A stretch of 26,471 bases of DNA, from positions 1 to 26,471 of the IMG/VR virus record IMGVR_UViG_3300042691_015502; one strand, given 5' to 3'. Shown here one piece after another: positions 835-22,912 of the stretch. Position 1 is the first letter of the stretch. Each line of letters begins with the position of its first letter. Source of the DNA: a virus. A program made the position numbers and the translations under genes. Below the pieces are notes generated by a model that saw nothing but the letters and a program-made list of their open reading frames with translations, did no database searches and was not told the DNA's origin.

Positions 835-844
835 GTTATGCACC

Positions 845-878
845 AAGGACCTGCCTTCCGAAAGGGGGCAGGTACCTT
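845..878 (+). terminator. GAAA-capped hairpin before the DUF2828 gene
   Basis: ACCTGCC (849-855) pairs with GGCAGGT (867-873), extended inward by TCC/GGG around a GAAA tetraloop (860-863) and outward by AAGG/CCTT (845-848/875-878, one bulge). No T-tract follows, so it may be the 3' end or a processing signal of the RNA, or a control element for the gene starting at 916. GGCAGGT at 812-818 could pair with the same ACCTGCC strand. Confidence 0.5.
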
Positions 879-889
879 CCCACAATTAA

Positions 890-901
890 TTAGTAACCAA
901 T
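890..901 (+). promoter_or_regulatory. Shared 12-base leader motif, copy 1
   Basis: TTAGTAACCAAT lies 26 bases before the ATG at 916. The identical 12-mer occurs at 2353-2364, 25 bases before the ATG at 2378. Both follow a strong hairpin and precede an A/T-rich stretch. It could be a phage promoter element or a translation enhancer; neither can be told from sequence. Confidence 0.35.
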
Positions 902-915
902 TAAATTTATATATT

Positions 916-2301
916 ATGTCTAGATTAGTCAATGCAACAAGACAGTATGATGCTTCAACTGCTAATGGAGCTGTCACACATTCAACTAGTTTGAATTACT
1001 GTTTGGATTTATTTTTCTTAGCAGGGGCAAGTAGAAATATGTCAGAGTCTGATATTATACTTGCTTTTGACCGTGCACGTGGTCAGAATAAGAACTTGGC
1101 ATACAAGATTCTGTTCTGGGCGCGTGATGCAAGAGGTGGTGCAGGTGAGAAGAGATTCTTCCAAGTGGTTATGGAACATATCAGTAAGATTGATTCTTAT
1201 GATTATGATCAATTAGCCATACATATACCTGAGTTTGGGTATTGGAAGGATGTATTCAAGATTGAAAAACCAAATGAGAACAATCTCAATTGGTTGGCTA
1301 TTCAACTTGAAGAATCACCTAATGCTAACCTCTTAGCTAAATGGTTTCCGAGAAAAGGTCAGTGGTTTTCAGCCATGCACAAGTATCTTAAACTAACTCC
1401 AAAAGAGTTTAGAAAGAAAATTGTGGGTATGACCAAAGTAGTGGAAACTCAAATGTGTGCCAATGAATGGGATTTGATCAATTATGGTCAAGTGCCTTCA
1501 GTTGCCATGAACAAGCATAGACAAGCATTCTTTAACCGTGATGGTAAGAGATATGCAGAGTATATTGCTGATGTTCAGGCTGGTAAGCAGAAGATCAATG
1601 CTTCAGTATTATTTCCTCACCAACTGTATCAAGCAGTTTGCAAGGGGGAGTATATTGATGCTGTAGAAGCTCAGTGGGATGCTTTGCCTGATTACATGGC
1701 TGGTAGCACAGAAAGGATTCTTCCTGTATGTGATGTCAGTGGTAGTATGACAGGGCTTCCTATGGATGTATCTATTTCTTTAGGGATTTATATCTCTGAA
1801 AGAAACCAAGGTATATTCAAGGATGCATTCATAACTTTCTCAGAGAGACCTGAGATGAATTACCTATCAGGTAGTTTGTCTGAGAGAATGAGACAGTTAC
1901 TGAATGCTAACTGGGGTATGTCTACTAATCTTCAAGCCACATTTGACTTGATTCTTAACAGTGCTGTTAGAGAGTCATTACCAGAGGATGAGATGCCTAC
2001 TAAATTGCTTATCATTAGTGATATGGAATTTAATGAGGCAGACTGTTACAAAACAAACCTTGATGTTATTAGGGCAAAGTATTCTGATGCAGGATACAAA
2101 ATGCCTGAAATAGTATTTTGGAATGTTAACGGTAGACTTGGTAATGTTCCTGCATCTGCTAAAGATTCAGGCATTGGCTTGGTATCAGGCTTCAGTCCTT
2201 CAATTTTGAAGGCAATATTGCAAGGTGAGATTTATTCTCCTGAGCAATTGATGCTTGATGCTGTGGACACTGCACGGTATTCCTGTATTGGAGTTGAATA
2301 A
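916..2301 (+). CDS. DUF2828/TROVE-like RNA-binding protein with vWA domain
   Basis: The 461-residue product has the two-part plan of Ro60-type proteins: a long helical N-terminal region (about 1-265) with family segments such as KWFPRKGQWF, MCANEWDLINYGQVPSVAM and INASVLFPHQLY, then a von Willebrand A domain opening with a MIDAS motif DVSGSM (D273, S275, S277). I recognise this arrangement as DUF2828, related to TROVE; Ro60 and its bacterial relative Rsr bind Y RNAs and misfolded RNAs, often from a neighbouring gene. RNA binding here is inferred. The start at 916 is preferred over the upstream ATG at 838, because 838 lies inside a repeated RNA element (835-845) and the intervening frame runs through a hairpin. 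A terminator follows, so the gene is a single-gene unit downstream of the structured RNA. Its early part uses several CGT arginine codons, suggesting good expression. Confidence 0.85.
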   Translation: MSRLVNATRQYDASTANGAVTHSTSLNYCLDLFFLAGASRNMSESDIILAFDRARGQNKNLAYKILFWARDARGGAGEKRFFQVVMEHISKIDSYDYDQLAIHIPEFGYWKDVFKIEKPNENNLNWLAIQLEESPNANLLAKWFPRKGQWFSAMHKYLKLTPKEFRKKIVGMTKVVETQMCANEWDLINYGQVPSVAMNKHRQAFFNRDGKRYAEYIADVQAGKQKINASVLFPHQLYQAVCKGEYIDAVEAQWDALPDYMAGSTERILPVCDVSGSMTGLPMDVSISLGIYISERNQGIFKDAFITFSERPEMNYLSGSLSERMRQLLNANWGMSTNLQATFDLILNSAVRESLPEDEMPTKLLIISDMEFNEADCYKTNLDVIRAKYSDAGYKMPEIVFWNVNGRLGNVPASAKDSGIGLVSGFSPSILKAILQGEIYSPEQLMLDAVDTARYSCIGVE

Positions 2302-7135: not shown

Positions 7136-8230
7136 ATGACAAAAGATCAAGTCCAAGAAGAGGCAATTAAAGCTACAGAAGGTAAGCAAAAATGTAGTGT
7201 AGTATTAGGAACAGGTGTAGGTAAGACTTTAGTTGGTCTTACTCACATAGAACATAGTACTACAGAGTTGATGCGGTGTCTTATTGTAGCACCAAAGAAG
7301 GCAATCTTCCAGTCATGGAAAGATGATGCTGTGAAATTTGGTAAACAAAATTTATTAGGTAGAATGGTATTTACTACTTATCTAAGTCTGAATAAACATA
7401 ACCCTAATGATTATGATGCTGTCTATTTGGATGAGATGCATAGTCTATTAGACAGTCACCGGGGATTCTTACAATTATACAAAGGCAAGATCCTTGGTCT
7501 TACTGGTACTCCACCAAAGAGAGACTATTCAGAGAAAGGTAAGTTAGTAAATGAATTCTGTCCTGTAGTATATACATTCAAAGCAGATGATGCTGTAGAG
7601 AATGGAATACTAAATGATTATCAGATCATAGTTCACCAACTGCAATTAACAGAAGAGAAAGTGTATCCAGTCAAAACAGGTAATAGACAGTATATGGCAT
7701 CTGAGATAGATAACTATACTTATTGGTCTAGAAGACTGGATGTAGGGTCAGGCAGTATTCATATGCTTAGAGTGATGAGAATGAAGGCATTGATGGATTA
7801 TCCTAGCAAAGAAAGATATACTAAAAAGCTAATGGACAGCATTAATACAAAGTGTATCATATTTGCTAATACTCAGGCTCAAGCTGATAAGTTATGTAAA
7901 CATAGCTACCACAGCGGTAATAAGGAGTCTGAAGATAATCTAGAAATGTTTAAATCAGGTGAGATTAATAAGTTATCTACTGTACTTCAGTTAAATGAGG
8001 GTGTGAATATTCCAAATCTCAAACAGGGTATCATTATGCATGCATATGGTAATGAGAGAAAGGCTGCACAGAGAATTGGCCGGTTACTCCGGTTAAATCC
8101 AGATGATAAAGCTATTGTTCACATACTATGTTACATGGATACAATAGATGAGAAATGGGTAAAAGAAGCATTAGAGAACTTTGATCAGACTAAAATTATT
8201 TGGAAAGATTTTAATATTTCATTATATTAG
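7136..8230 (+). CDS. SF2 DNA/RNA helicase
   Basis: The 364-residue protein has both RecA-like lobes of a superfamily 2 helicase. Lobe 1 has Walker A GTGVGKT (25-31), motif Ia near LIVAPKKAIFQSW, the DEMH Walker B box (99-102) and motif III LTGTPP (122-127). Lobe 2 has CIIFANTQAQADKL, NEGVNIPNLKQGI and motif VI QRIGRLLR. Such short helicases unwind or remodel DNA during phage replication or recombination; this one is compact compared with host RecQ or UvrB. The ATG at 7136 lies just after the HNH-tail remnant. The ClpS-like gene follows after four bases. Confidence 0.9.
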   Translation: MTKDQVQEEAIKATEGKQKCSVVLGTGVGKTLVGLTHIEHSTTELMRCLIVAPKKAIFQSWKDDAVKFGKQNLLGRMVFTTYLSLNKHNPNDYDAVYLDEMHSLLDSHRGFLQLYKGKILGLTGTPPKRDYSEKGKLVNEFCPVVYTFKADDAVENGILNDYQIIVHQLQLTEEKVYPVKTGNRQYMASEIDNYTYWSRRLDVGSGSIHMLRVMRMKALMDYPSKERYTKKLMDSINTKCIIFANTQAQADKLCKHSYHSGNKESEDNLEMFKSGEINKLSTVLQLNEGVNIPNLKQGIIMHAYGNERKAAQRIGRLLRLNPDDKAIVHILCYMDTIDEKWVKEALENFDQTKIIWKDFNISLY

Positions 8231-8234
8231 TAGT

Positions 8235-8489
8235 ATGGAAGATTACAAAACACATAAACTAGTTATCTATAATGATGATGTAAATTCTTATGACTACATT
8301 ATGGCATGCTTGATTAAGGTTTGTAATCATGAAAGGTTACAAGCTGAACAGTGTGCTATTGTAGCTCATAATAATGGAAAATGTACTGTAAAATCTGGGG
8401 ATTACATGGAAATGTTTGAGATAAAAGGTACATTTGATGACTTAGATATAAAATCAGAAATTAGAGAACATGCAGGTGATATGTATTAA
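8235..8489 (+). CDS. clpS: ClpS-like Clp protease adaptor
   Basis: The 84-residue protein matches the folded core of ClpS. It starts with HKLVIYNDDVNSYDYIM, whose NDD (13-15) corresponds to the N-degron-binding Asn-Asp-Asp of bacterial ClpS, and continues with ACLIKVCNHERLQAEQCA and the IVAHNNGKCTV segment, where H45 corresponds to E. coli H66. ClpS binds proteins with bulky hydrophobic N-terminal residues and hands them to ClpA or ClpC for degradation. The flexible N-terminal extension of E. coli ClpS is very short here (about seven residues), so delivery could differ. The start at 8235 is chosen because it begins just before the conserved core; a longer frame from 8181 overlaps the helicase. 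It overlaps the next gene by 20 bases. Confidence 0.85.
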   Translation: MEDYKTHKLVIYNDDVNSYDYIMACLIKVCNHERLQAEQCAIVAHNNGKCTVKSGDYMEMFEIKGTFDDLDIKSEIREHAGDMY

Positions 8490-8742
8490 TGACAGTGATA
8501 AGCCAAAAAGAGTATCCCAATCTGAGTGGATAACTAAAGGCAAAATATACACAGTAGTTGAGGTTGTTAAAATGAATCTGCAAAATAACAAGCTTGGGTA
8601 TAGACTAAAAGAAGTTCAACTATCAGATCAGTCATTTCCTTATGAATTTTATAGTGCTGAAAGATTTGGTATTGTAAGAGGTATTTTAAAAATGAATGGT
8701 GAAGAAAAAGTTTATGCTGAAGAGCTAGATTTACACATTTAA
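8470..8742 (+). CDS. Conserved small phage protein of unknown function
   Basis: The 90-residue protein has a pattern I have seen in many Bacteroidetes phage proteins of unknown function: VICINDSDKP near the start, then WITKGKIYTVVEVVKMNLQ and LGYRLKEVQLSD, ending with FPYEFYSAERFGIV. It looks like a small all-beta (SH3-like) fold. The start overlaps the ClpS-like gene by 20 bases, indicating coupled translation; whether it works with ClpS is unknown. Confidence 0.6.
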   Translation: MQVICINDSDKPKRVSQSEWITKGKIYTVVEVVKMNLQNNKLGYRLKEVQLSDQSFPYEFYSAERFGIVRGILKMNGEEKVYAEELDLHI

Positions 8743-10300: not shown

Positions 10301-11167
10301 ATGGTAATTGAGAAAGTTACCAGAAAATCTATGACCATTAGACCAAGTGGGAGGAGTACTGATTTTATCAGTCCTTCCTTTGGTCATGGCTGTTTGTATA
10401 ACTGTACTTACTGTTATATGAAAAGACATAAGCCGGAAGGATTATCTGTAGCTACAAATACTATGGATATCCTGACAGAAATTAATTCACATGCTTATTT
10501 TTCTACAGTAGAGAAGCCTAATCAGACAGGAGAGTATGTAACTTATGACATTTCCTGTAATGAAGACTTTGCTCTGCATGCTAAATATCATGACTGGAAG
10601 ACAATCTTTGCATTCTTTAGAGATCATCCACTTGCTATGGGTTCATTTGCTACTAAGTATGTAAATGAAGACTTACTTAAGTTTGATCCTCATGATAAAA
10701 TAAGAATAAGATTTAGTCTGATGCCTGAAGATTATAGAAAAATACTAGAACCTAATACTTCAACTATATATGAAAGATTATCTGCAGTTAGATTATTTTT
10801 AGAATCTGGTTATGAAGTACATTTAAACTTTAGTCCTGTGATAGTTCATGATGATTGGTTAGGACAGTATAGTGCACTATTTCAAATTATAAATTCAGGA
10901 GCTAAGTATCATTCTTGGGATTTTGATGAAGTAAAAGCTGAAGTAATATTTCTTACTCATAATGAGCAGAAACATCTGTATAATTTAGAGCATAAACTTC
11001 CAGGAGAAGAATTACTTTGGAAACCAGAAATACAAGAGAAGAAAATATCTCAGTATGGAGGTGCTAACTTAAGATATAACCGTATATATAAAGGAGATTA
11101 TATTAAAGAGTGGACTGAGTTACATGATAAGATAATCCCTTGGAATACAATTAGATATATATTTTAA
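10301..11167 (+). CDS. Spore photoproduct lyase-like radical SAM enzyme
   Basis: The 288-residue protein has the radical SAM cluster motif C31-x3-C35-x2-C38 (GCLYNCTYCYM) and aligns by eye with spore photoproduct lyase over most of its length: YDISCNED (C86) against FEASCTSD of SplB, where that cysteine is the catalytic hydrogen donor; SFATKYV; IRIRFSLMPEDYR; LEPNTSTIYERLSAVRLF; GYEVHLNFSPVIVHDDW; and the closing SQYGGANLRY. SPL uses a 5'-deoxyadenosyl radical to reverse a UV thymine lesion in spore DNA. Bacteroidetes do not sporulate, although I recall chromosomal relatives there, so the substrate here is unknown; repair of a DNA photoproduct is the leading inference. The conserved cysteine supports activity. 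The gene is in the 10077-11577 run with minimal spacing. Confidence 0.85.
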   Translation: MVIEKVTRKSMTIRPSGRSTDFISPSFGHGCLYNCTYCYMKRHKPEGLSVATNTMDILTEINSHAYFSTVEKPNQTGEYVTYDISCNEDFALHAKYHDWKTIFAFFRDHPLAMGSFATKYVNEDLLKFDPHDKIRIRFSLMPEDYRKILEPNTSTIYERLSAVRLFLESGYEVHLNFSPVIVHDDWLGQYSALFQIINSGAKYHSWDFDEVKAEVIFLTHNEQKHLYNLEHKLPGEELLWKPEIQEKKISQYGGANLRYNRIYKGDYIKEWTELHDKIIPWNTIRYIF

Positions 11168-12896: not shown

Positions 12897-13595
12897 ATGG
12901 AATTACAGGAAATTAAACAAAAAATGTTTGATAAACTTGAACCTAGTGGGTGGGGTAGAGTTTTTAAATCTTTTATATTTAGTTCTGACTTTGATCAGAT
13001 AATCAGCAAGTTATGGGAACTAAGTCAAAATGGAAAAAGATTTACTCCACCACTAAAACAAGTATTTAGGGCCTTTGAAGAGTGTCCTTATGATAAACTA
13101 CAGGTAGTAATAGTGGGTCAGGATCCATATCCACAATTGGGAGTTGCAGATGGTATATCATTTAGTTGTAGCAATACAAATAAATTACAACCAAGTCTCA
13201 AGTTTATCTTTCAAGAAATAGAACGGACTGTTTACAATGAGTATCCTACACATCAAGATGTAGATTTAAAGAGATGGTCTAAACAAGGCATACTTATGCT
13301 TAATACAGCTCTTACAGTAGAAGTAGATAAGATAGGTAGCCATTATGATATATGGAGGCCTTTTACTACATACTTGTTAGATTGGTTAAACAGCTATAAT
13401 CCGGGTTTGGTTTACTTGTATATGGGTAAGAAAGCTGAAGAATGGTCAGAATATACCAATGATAACAGTCATAAGTTTGTAGTTAAACATCCAGCAAGTG
13501 CTGCGTATAGTGGAGGTAAATGGGATTGTGATGATGTATTTAACAAAATCAATGAAGTTGTTAAGAGCACAAATGGTAATAAGATAACTTGGTAA
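12897..13595 (+). CDS. ung: Uracil-DNA glycosylase (family 1)
   Basis: The 232-residue protein keeps the UDG active site: the water-activating motif GQDPY (74-78), FSCS for uracil stacking (about 89), LNTALTVE with the uracil-binding Asn (N136), and HPASAAY with the catalytic His (H198) in the leucine-loop position. The motif reads GQDPYPQ where cellular enzymes have GQDPYH, and the loop is HPASAA instead of HPSPLS, so both are diverged. UDG removes uracil from DNA; in a phage this limits mutation from dUTP or deamination. It opens the replication operon, starts 32 bases from the divergent gene, and is followed after one base by the next gene. Length is typical of the family. Confidence 0.95.
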   Translation: MELQEIKQKMFDKLEPSGWGRVFKSFIFSSDFDQIISKLWELSQNGKRFTPPLKQVFRAFEECPYDKLQVVIVGQDPYPQLGVADGISFSCSNTNKLQPSLKFIFQEIERTVYNEYPTHQDVDLKRWSKQGILMLNTALTVEVDKIGSHYDIWRPFTTYLLDWLNSYNPGLVYLYMGKKAEEWSEYTNDNSHKFVVKHPASAAYSGGKWDCDDVFNKINEVVKSTNGNKITW

Positions 13596-20151: not shown

Positions 20152-20573
20152 TGGCAAAGATGATTTTTGACAAAGAAGAAACAAGGAACTTGCTTATGAT
20201 GCTGCAATCTGAAGATGCAGATAATCATCTTATAGCATTTGAATCCTTGAAGAATGTTGATTTTAAAAAGTATATAGGAGAACTGTTAGTTCTCTATAAG
20301 TTTAGTGGACATAGTATGAGTAATTGGTTAACAAACTGTAATAAAATTGCAATGAGATTTCAAAATACATTTGCAAATGAAGTACCACTCATCAGTAGTC
20401 CCAAAACTTTAAGTCTGATTACACAACACAAAGGTTCTAAAGCTTCGGTTGAGCTATTTATGGAATTCTTTATTAGAGATATGTCAAGGATGTTAGAATC
20501 CATTGGCTATCCTACTGACAAATTTGAGATAAATATTAAATTTAAAGATGATGGACAGACAACAGAGTCTTAG
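20151..20573 (+). CDS. Protein with SxDxDN motif beside the vWA/MoxR pair
   Basis: The 140-residue helical protein has MMLQSEDADNHLIAFESL (about 15-33), the same motif found in 11170-11577 and 23008-24372. No other domain is recognised. It overlaps the zinc-peptidase/vWA gene by 26 bases, so it is likely translated with it and may act in the same complex. Confidence 0.6.
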   Translation: MAKMIFDKEETRNLLMMLQSEDADNHLIAFESLKNVDFKKYIGELLVLYKFSGHSMSNWLTNCNKIAMRFQNTFANEVPLISSPKTLSLITQHKGSKASVELFMEFFIRDMSRMLESIGYPTDKFEINIKFKDDGQTTES

Positions 20574-21732
20574 TAAAATTGCAAAAGAGTTGATGTTGAA
20601 AGAGCCTTTCTACGGGTTCTTTCTTATTAATCTAAACAAAGTTTGGGATGGTAGAAGGGTTCCAACTGCTGGTGTTAGCAAGAATAATATTAATTATCAA
20701 CTTGCAATCAATCCTGAGTTTTGGGAAAGTCTTAGTGATAACCACAGACTTGGCTTATTAAAACATGAATTGCTTCATATTGCATTTGGACATCTTACTA
20801 CTTTCTTTAAGTTTAGTAATAAGAAACTTGCAAATGTTGCAATGGATATGGAGATCAATCAGTATATATCTAAAGAATGGCTACCTGAAGGTGGTATTGA
20901 TATAGATAATTATGCTGATCTTAATCTTGATAGAAAAGCAGGTTGTAGATATTATTATGACAAGCTAAAAGAACTTCAAGATGAGAAAGAAAAGAATGGT
21001 ACTTGTGGTAATGAACCTATGGATCAGTTACTAGATGCTATGGCAAATGGTGAACTTGATGATCATGCTACCTGGGAAGAGTTTGAAAACATGCCTGAAG
21101 CTGAGAAAAAGCTAATTGAAAAACAATTACAGAAAGTTCTTAGTGATGCTAAAGATCAGACTCTTAAGAAGAGAGGAACTATTCCTGGAGAAATTGAAGA
21201 TGTAATCATCATTGAAGAAGTTACTAAACAAAAATTTAATTGGCGGAATTATATCAGAAGATTTACTGGTGTAAGTACAAAAGTGTTTACTAAGAAAATC
21301 AGAAGAAAAGAAAACCGTAGATTTAGTGATAATCCGGGTCTAAAAGTAAAAATGAAACAACACATGTTACTAGCTATTGATACTTCAGGTTCAGTAAGTG
21401 ATTCTGAATTGCAAGAGTTTATGAGTGAGATATATCATATTTATAAATGTGGTGTTGATATTACTATAATTCAGTGTGATACCATTATCAGATCAATTGA
21501 ACCTTACACAGGTAAATTTGAGATGAATGTATTGGGTAGAGGGGGAACTGAGTTTGACCCTGTACTAGAATATTTTAATGCAAATCTTGGTAAATATACA
21601 AGCCTGGTGTATTTTACTGATGGTGAATGCCGTGCAGATGTAAAACCTAGAGGTAATACTCTATGGGTTTTGTCAGAACAATCTTATATGAATGAGGAAT
21701 TACCAGGTAAAGTTATTAAATTAGAATTATAA
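20548..21732 (+). CDS. HExxH metallopeptidase-like and vWA protein (DUF2201-type)
   Basis: The 394-residue protein joins two parts. The N-terminal part has a zinc-peptidase signature KHELLHIAFGH (H73, E74, H77 and further G81-H82). The C-terminal part is a von Willebrand A domain with MIDAS LAIDTSGSVSD (D278, S280, S282) and later FTDGEC. This layout is that of DUF2201/VWA-like proteins, usually encoded next to a MoxR ATPase, as here. MoxR-vWA pairs act as chaperone-like, metal-linked remodelling systems. Peptidase activity is inferred from the motif. Overlaps the previous gene by 26 bases. Confidence 0.85.
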   Translation: MMDRQQSLSKIAKELMLKEPFYGFFLINLNKVWDGRRVPTAGVSKNNINYQLAINPEFWESLSDNHRLGLLKHELLHIAFGHLTTFFKFSNKKLANVAMDMEINQYISKEWLPEGGIDIDNYADLNLDRKAGCRYYYDKLKELQDEKEKNGTCGNEPMDQLLDAMANGELDDHATWEEFENMPEAEKKLIEKQLQKVLSDAKDQTLKKRGTIPGEIEDVIIIEEVTKQKFNWRNYIRRFTGVSTKVFTKKIRRKENRRFSDNPGLKVKMKQHMLLAIDTSGSVSDSELQEFMSEIYHIYKCGVDITIIQCDTIIRSIEPYTGKFEMNVLGRGGTEFDPVLEYFNANLGKYTSLVYFTDGECRADVKPRGNTLWVLSEQSYMNEELPGKVIKLEL

Positions 21733-21742
21733 AAAAAGAGTT

Positions 21743-22912
21743 ATGAGTCAAGTACAATTAAATGTTGATGAGTTAAAAAGCTTTATTAAGCACATGGTTA
21801 AGAATAACCAACATATTCAGTCTGAAGGTAAAGTACCTGTGGCAATTAATATTGAGGGTGATGCTGGTCTTGGTAAGACTTCAGCTATCATGCAGTTGGG
21901 TAAAGAATTGAGTATGCAAGTTGTTAAGCTGAATTTATCTCAGTTAGAAGAATTGGGTGACTTAGTTGGGTTTCCTGTAAAAGAATTTGAAATACAAAAT
22001 GCTGAAGGTAAAACTACCTGGATTAATGAATCTCAGATAAATGCAGCAACAAGCAAAGGATACAAAGTTATAGGTAAGAGAATGTCACATGCTGCTCCTG
22101 AATGGATTCAGGGTAAAGGAGAAGGTGGTTTCTTAATTCTTGATGACTATACCAGAGCTGATGCAAGATTTATGCAAGCAACTATGGAGATATTAGACAG
22201 ACAAGAATATGTATCTTGGAAGCTACCAAAGAACTGGCATGTTATCTTGACTACTAATCCAGACAATGGTGATTATAATGTTACTAGTCTTGACGTAGCT
22301 CAGAAGACTAGATTTATCTCTGTTGAGTTAAAATATGATTCAGATGTATGGGCTAAGTGGGCAGAGAAAGCAAATATAGATGGTAGATGTATTAACTTTA
22401 TGTTGATGCACCCAGAATTGGTAAGCCAAAGAGTTAATCCAAGAGCTATTACTACTTTCTTTAATGCTATTAGTTCTATTGAGAAGTTTGAAGCAGACCT
22501 ACCTCTAATCCAAATGATTGGTGAGGGTTCTGTTGGTGTAGATTTTAGTTCAATGTTTACTATGTTTATCAATAATAAGCTAGATAGAATCATTAGTCCA
22601 GTGGACATCCTAACCAAAGATGAGCAGTATGTAATGAACTCTCTTACTAATGCTGTTGGTAAAGATGATGACTTCCGTGCTGATATATCTAGTGTTATTG
22701 CAACAAGGGTGATTAATTATTCTCTTACTTTGGCTGACAAAGGAGCAGTAGGTAAACCAATTATTGACAGGATAGCTAAGCTTACTACTGACTGTGATGC
22801 ATTTACTGATGACCTTAGATATTATATGGTCAAGGAGATTGTTAACGGTAACAAAGTTAAGTTCTCACAACTGATGATGAATCAGAACGTGGTGAAGATG
22901 GCTGTCAAGTAA
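21743..22912 (+). CDS. MoxR-family AAA+ ATPase
   Basis: The 389-residue protein has Walker A GDAGLGKT (39-46), Walker B FLILDDYTRAD (D134-D135), a sensor-1 segment HVILTTNPDNGDYNV and an arginine-rich MoxR-type continuation (QRVNPRAITTFF). MoxR ATPases remodel partner proteins, typically together with vWA proteins such as the one encoded just upstream. The two genes are separated by ten bases. Function in the phage is unknown; one idea is maturation of a phage or host complex. Terminator hairpins follow. Confidence 0.9.
   Translation: MSQVQLNVDELKSFIKHMVKNNQHIQSEGKVPVAINIEGDAGLGKTSAIMQLGKELSMQVVKLNLSQLEELGDLVGFPVKEFEIQNAEGKTTWINESQINAATSKGYKVIGKRMSHAAPEWIQGKGEGGFLILDDYTRADARFMQATMEILDRQEYVSWKLPKNWHVILTTNPDNGDYNVTSLDVAQKTRFISVELKYDSDVWAKWAEKANIDGRCINFMLMHPELVSQRVNPRAITTFFNAISSIEKFEADLPLIQMIGEGSVGVDFSSMFTMFINNKLDRIISPVDILTKDEQYVMNSLTNAVGKDDDFRADISSVIATRVINYSLTLADKGAVGKPIIDRIAKLTTDCDAFTDDLRYYMVKEIVNGNKVKFSQLMMNQNVVKMAVK

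Follow-up and report, generated by a model that had tools for sequence, protein, structure and literature searches.

The window, by which we mean all 26,471 nucleotides of a 26 kb virus record, encodes a short ClpS-like protein between a helicase and a small protein whose gene overlaps the 3' end of clpS (Table 1). The clpS-like ORF runs from ATG to TAA, and its coordinates and frame are exact. The helicase matches those of Flavobacterium and Bacteroides phages. Elsewhere in the window are four genes with recognizable families, also listed in Table 1. One of these belongs to the spore photoproduct lyase family, and as judged by its family matches, its product is possibly a DNA photoproduct repair enzyme of the phage.

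Table 1. Features of the window, with the basis for each assignment.
Feature	Coordinates	Strand	Basis
DEAD/ResIII-type helicase, fixed upstream neighbour	7136..8230	+	Pfam ResIII, Helicase_C
clpS-like gene, 84 amino acids, ClpS core without N-terminal extension	8235..8489	+	Pfam, AlphaFold2 model, PDB matches
Codons for N13-D14-D15 (E. coli N34-D35-D36), N-degron alpha-amino contact motif	8271..8279	+	Alignment
Codon for H45 (E. coli H66)	8367..8369	+	Alignment
Overlap of 20 nt between the 3' end of clpS and the start of the 90-amino-acid gene	8470..8489	+	Locus comparison
Partner gene downstream of clpS, 90 amino acids, weak SH3-like model	8470..8742	+	Co-occurrence
DUF7788/DUF2828 protein	838..2301		PHROG 850, annotated as RNA-binding
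Radical-SAM protein, spore photoproduct lyase family	10301..11167		TIGR03886, 298 bits (cut-off of 437.55 not reached); Pfam SPL, 77 bits
Uracil-DNA glycosylase family protein	12897..13595		
VWA / metallopeptidase-like protein (DUF2201) adjoining an AAA ATPase, like a MoxR-VWA pair	20548..22912		

The product of the clpS-like gene matches the ClpS family of Pfam (PF02617; 52.8 bits, E = 3.4e-14, with a cut-off of 23). It is far under the cut-offs of the ClpS equivalog models in NCBIfam (the top score is 25.7 versus 117), and it has a weak match to PHROG 27368, which is annotated as ATP-dependent protease. The first phmmer matches in the PDB were designed TPR proteins, which match over repeated weak stretches only, so we attribute these to chance. 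An AlphaFold2 model of the phage protein, with 53 homologues as input, has a pLDDT of 90.7 and the secondary structure E-H-H-E-H-E. Foldseek with this model returned 38 chains at E ≤ 0.001, and all 38 are ClpS (a malarial ClpS-like protein is among them). With VIA-align, the top PDB chains are all ClpS, with Z of 13–15; Mycolicibacterium ClpS is at Z = 15.3, and Caulobacter ClpS in complex with an N-end-rule peptide (3dnj) has an rmsd of 0.8 over 74 residues. A preliminary description of this DNA, made from the sequence alone, had taken the gene for a phage-encoded ClpS-like adaptor. The PF02617 score and the predicted fold, which matches ClpS, bear this out: the window's ORF is a true ClpS.

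The ClpS proteins of E. coli and Caulobacter (3o2b and 3dnj) have the same fold, and the Asn, Asp, and His contacts are present in the window's protein, but they are only about 14–18% identical to it, and the phage protein lacks their N-terminal extension and proline junction. ClpS from Bacteroidota is much closer. For instance, ClpS from Paenimyroides and Brumimicrobium (L021 and L027) are 41–54% identical to the phage protein. Bacteroidota ClpS share with it the NDx motif, N17, an aromatic gatekeeper, the QAEQC helix, and the GKC-VK strand. Unlike the phage proteins, they have an invariant histidine (30 of 30), a charged or polar helix 3, and about 23–37 residues before the motif (E. coli ClpS has 33).

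The window's ClpS has many close relatives in viral contigs, with about 95 unique homologues. The Crassvirus major capsid protein (PF23898) is encoded in all 10 of the records of at least 100 kb that contain the gene block, and in 12 of 21 overall; one 115 kb relative encodes terminase, portal, crAss capsid, and DNA polymerase. The block in the window is syntenic with its relatives, and the putative place in the Crassvirales of the window, which is itself a fragment, rests on this synteny. We conclude that clpS is a core gene of one Crassvirales lineage. The median pairwise dN/dS is 0.28 and none of the 584 pairs exceeds 1 (computed over 70 codons, leaving out those that overlap the next gene). 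So clpS is under strong purifying selection and is not a chance ORF. Phylogeny bears on where it came from, a question that the preliminary description had raised by suggesting a search for host origin: in a tree of 109 ClpS rows, the 46 phage ClpS form one clade (99/90) that is nested inside the main group of Bacteroidota ClpS, which supports an origin from Bacteroidota, although the 73 usable columns are too few to fix the exact donor. Bacteroidota are also the likely hosts of these phages.

About 80 loci have the same fixed order of helicase, clpS, and 90-amino-acid gene. Independent searches with the helicase and with the 90-amino-acid gene gathered 155 loci, and 150 of these have clpS and the 90-amino-acid gene together. 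Another two contain clpS and the helicase, but the 90-amino-acid gene was not detected. Just two loci (L196 and L197) clearly lack clpS, and these are missing the 90-amino-acid gene as well; another (L217) ends at the helicase. We found no family for the 90-amino-acid partner, and the best hits of a fold search, to SH3 domains, were not significant (E = 0.2).

The two genes overlap by 20 nt in 69 of 81 cases and by 23 nt in another 9. Proteins of the phage clade end with a tail of about eight residues (ESYMH or AGNMY) that is absent from the hosts' ClpS. We considered that this tail might be a functional substitute for the lost N-terminal tail, but in 78 of 81 loci it coincides with the region around the start codon of the downstream gene. 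The tail is probably dual coding; its conservation is most simply explained by the second reading frame together with translational coupling, rather than by the function of ClpS. The tail does persist in L097 and L098 even though a GIY-YIG-like ORF separates clpS from its partner. This inserted ORF (L097:4723-5433 and L098:952-1662) clusters with the window's own GIY-YIG/NUMOD1 homing-endonuclease-like gene. The insertion parts the otherwise overlapping frames of clpS and the partner, and both ends are intact.

To describe the pocket, we aligned the window's protein to E. coli ClpS and to 30 Bacteroidota ClpS. In Caulobacter ClpS, the alpha-amino group of the N-degron is contacted by Asn47, Asp49, and His79 (PMC12493166), whose counterparts in the window's protein are N13, D15, and H45. 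The alignment verifies the preliminary description's statement that NDD and the histidine are kept, as far as the window's protein is concerned; across the family, these residues are not universal. Of 95 unique phage relatives, 93 retain N13 and D14 and 74 retain D15; position 45 is histidine in 82, aspartate in 9, and asparagine in 4. On the tree, these replacements of H45 require about nine changes, and well-supported branches force three of them. The other pocket residues resemble those of Bacteroidota (N17, the aromatic residue at 19, and A41), except that A44 stands where the hosts have Val or Ile. As compared to E. coli ClpS, the gatekeeper is Tyr19 instead of Met40, and Ala41 and Ala44 replace Met62 and Val65.

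In two viral contigs (L228 and L286), the ND dipeptide is gone and the ORFs are intact. Both are divergent members of the family; in each, the NDD loop has become KN[IV][DE]H and asparagine is at the position of the histidine. The loop that they have in common may be of convergent origin. We asked if a compensated frameshift lay behind the loss of ND in L228, but the DNA has in-frame substitutions instead. Searches from L228 and L286 for a wider subfamily with this loop matched only these two sequences. Because the histidine is replaced in 13 of 95 relatives and ND is lost in two, holding N-degrons is not the function of every member. Still, the pocket residues make N-degron binding likely for the window's protein and for most, not all, of its relatives.

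The preliminary description also noted a very short N-terminal extension, and here the relatives support both the observation and the ATG start. Just 12 residues precede NDD in the window's ClpS, and about 5 precede the core strand. Of 83 loci, 80 have their closest ATG exactly 12 residues ahead of the motif and the other 3 have it 11 residues ahead, and the enlarged set of loci shows the same short N-terminus. Among 47 unique ORFs, 18 are preceded by an in-frame stop that lies one or two codons ahead of the ATG, and in these 18 an extension would not fit. We did consider a hidden extension that begins at an upstream TTG or in-frame ATG, but these stops argue against it, and the conserved block begins at the ATG. 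T6-H7-K8, which adjoin the core, hardly vary within the phage clade and are variable in the hosts. This stretch lies outside of the helicase gene, whose stop is 4–29 nt upstream in nearly all loci. An early value of 13 for a host extension, along with some blanks (L017, L032, L034, and L024), did not reflect short host proteins: by eye, the odd values came from ND dipeptides that occur ahead of the motif, or from absent ATGs, in the hosts' N-termini. The disordered extension, which corresponds to residues 1–25 of E. coli ClpS and enters the ClpA channel, is not present in the phage ClpS.

In E. coli, the entry of this extension into the ClpA channel matters for delivery, as blocking the extension inhibits delivery (PMC9663308). 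ClpS without its extension is stabilised in vivo against ClpAP (PMC12974527). The preliminary description had listed three options for a phage ClpS: to redirect the host's N-degron pathway, to compete with the host's ClpS, or to protect phage proteins. Because delivery in E. coli needs the extension in the ClpA channel, its absence across the clade favours competition or protection and speaks against redirection or the delivery of new substrates.

The surface that docks on the chaperone also differs. In helix 3 of E. coli ClpS, Glu79, Glu82, and Lys84 contact the N-domain of ClpA (PMC12493166). These positions align to D56, E59, and F61. The docking lysine is not kept in the phages, nor is it consistently kept in the Bacteroidota hosts. 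Position 58 is Leu, Met, or Ile in 39 of 46 phage sequences, and all 46 have a non-polar or aromatic residue at position 61, whereas both positions are mostly charged or polar in the hosts. These substitutions suggest a changed docking surface, which could be tighter or lost alike. As for the partners, we found no match to ClpP or to Clp_N (the N-domain of ClpA/C type) in 16 records of relatives, nor to L/F-transferase in 21 records, several of the records in each set being fragments. Among Bacteroidota genomes, ClpS is present in 146 of 148, L/F-transferase in 58 of 61, and Clp_N in 61 of 61 (an upper bound for ClpA/ClpC, since ClpB has Clp_N too). Because the sampled phages lack ClpP, Clp_N, and L/F-transferase, any Clp partner must be the host's.

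Other phages encode ClpS as well. Those of the jumbo phages Atu_ph07, PA5oct, Phosso, Vibrio phage 2.275.O, and GAP32 are of the E. coli type and not of the Bacteroidota type, and Atu_ph07 encodes further Clp proteins besides ClpS (PMC6102473). The ClpS of PA5oct and Phosso keep the extension, with 25–26 residues before the motif. Vibrio phage 2.275.O (L318, MG592671) has just 12 residues before NDD, with Asp in place of His; its ClpS is unrelated and E. coli-type. As judged by these sequences, the Vibrio phage and the crAss-like clade apparently converged on a short N-terminus and Asp. The ClpS of three uncultured phages of 634–642 kb (LR756502, LR756504, and LR745206) are of the Bacteroidota type and are 42–53% identical to the window's ClpS, but they lie outside the crAss-like clade on the tree and, unlike it, they have an extension of normal length (26–29 residues before the motif). 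So the short N-terminus is a fixed property of the crAss-like clade and not of phage ClpS generally. In Erwinia phage Kaldavass and Cronobacter phage GAP32 (L319 and L320), ClpS is 177 amino acids long; it has a long N-terminal addition and a pocket loop without the ND motif. A record filed as Acinetobacter phage (L321, CAKLQH020000043) has clpS beside clpA and argC, as in a bacterial chromosome, and was probably misfiled.

We propose, with a confidence that falls a little short of even, that the phage gene encodes a bare ClpS core, which works within the Clp/N-degron pathway of the host and does not deliver. The phage ClpS would hold N-degron proteins in its pocket, as the kept residues suggest, and would dock on ClpA or ClpC of the host, at the N-domain. 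Because it lacks the extension that is required in E. coli ClpAP, and so has nothing to be pulled into the unfoldase channel, the cargo would not be handed over and the phage ClpS would not be degraded. The net effect would be competition with the host's ClpS, for N-degron proteins, for the unfoldase N-domain, or for both, so that N-degron proteins are spared in the course of infection, including phage proteins or cleavage products. The requirement for the extension is known for E. coli ClpA, and the Bacteroidota partner may work differently.

If the Bacteroidota unfoldase does not depend on the extension, then the phage ClpS could instead be a delivery adaptor, feeding chosen N-degron proteins of the host or the phage to the host's ClpAP or ClpCP. 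The pocket is kept in the window's protein, and the ClpS of jumbo phages were proposed to bring targets to the host's ClpAP (PMC7824862). Furthermore, the extension has its normal length in PA5oct, Phosso, and the 634–642 kb phages, so some phage ClpS plausibly do deliver. However, the extension is absent throughout the crAss-like clade even though the tree implies that the ancestral ClpS carried one, and we consider delivery by this clade rather unlikely.

We also considered that the ClpS fold was reused for phage-specific binding (of the SH3-like neighbour, the helicase, or another N-terminus), unrelated to Clp proteolysis. This would fit the fixed neighbourhood, with the helicase on one side and an overlapping partner on the other, and the joint loss of clpS and the partner, but the overlap alone predicts joint loss. 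Reuse might also explain why T6, H7, K8, Y21, A24, and C25 are near-invariant in the clade and variable in the hosts, why the histidine was lost repeatedly, and why ND was lost in two contigs with open ORFs. But a fully reused fold would not need N13 and D14, which are kept in 93 of 95 relatives, nor a host-like pocket (N17, F/Y19, and A41), so reuse seems more improbable than delivery. Finally, a few members (L228 and L286) have a degenerate pocket, which might suggest that clpS is a recently captured host gene that is decaying and unimportant. This is hardly credible given the presence of clpS in 150 of 155 loci with the helicase or partner, the median dN/dS of 0.28, and the single old monophyletic clade.

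Going beyond our proposal of a non-delivering core ClpS, the extension-less ClpS that a whole Crassvirales lineage has as a core gene might shut down or reprogram the host's N-degron pathway, as a natural counterpart of the laboratory ClpS without its N-terminal extension and as a case of a general anti-adaptor strategy of phages. The repeated change of His to Asp or Asn and the short N-terminus and Asp of the Vibrio phage suggest such a general strategy; we see it as possible but doubtful. Phage-encoded ClpS and the idea that the host's ClpAP is redirected have already been published (PMC7824862; PMC6102473 for phage ClpS). In the literature that we searched, we found no papers that join crAss-like phages or Crassvirales with ClpS or Clp proteolysis, and within the searchable literature the extension-less core ClpS of Crassvirales appears to be new.

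Earlier phage ClpS were noted in passing and were always guessed to feed the host's protease; with a nearly universal and strongly conserved ClpS that has no delivery tail, the opposite guess can now be tested, namely that a lineage of phages keeps its host from degrading N-degron proteins. If our proposal is correct, then the phage protein would be a natural inhibitor of N-degron degradation in bacteria, and it would be a tool for separating the binding of N-degrons from their delivery. It would also provide one of the few concrete hypotheses for how crAss-like phages take over their hosts.
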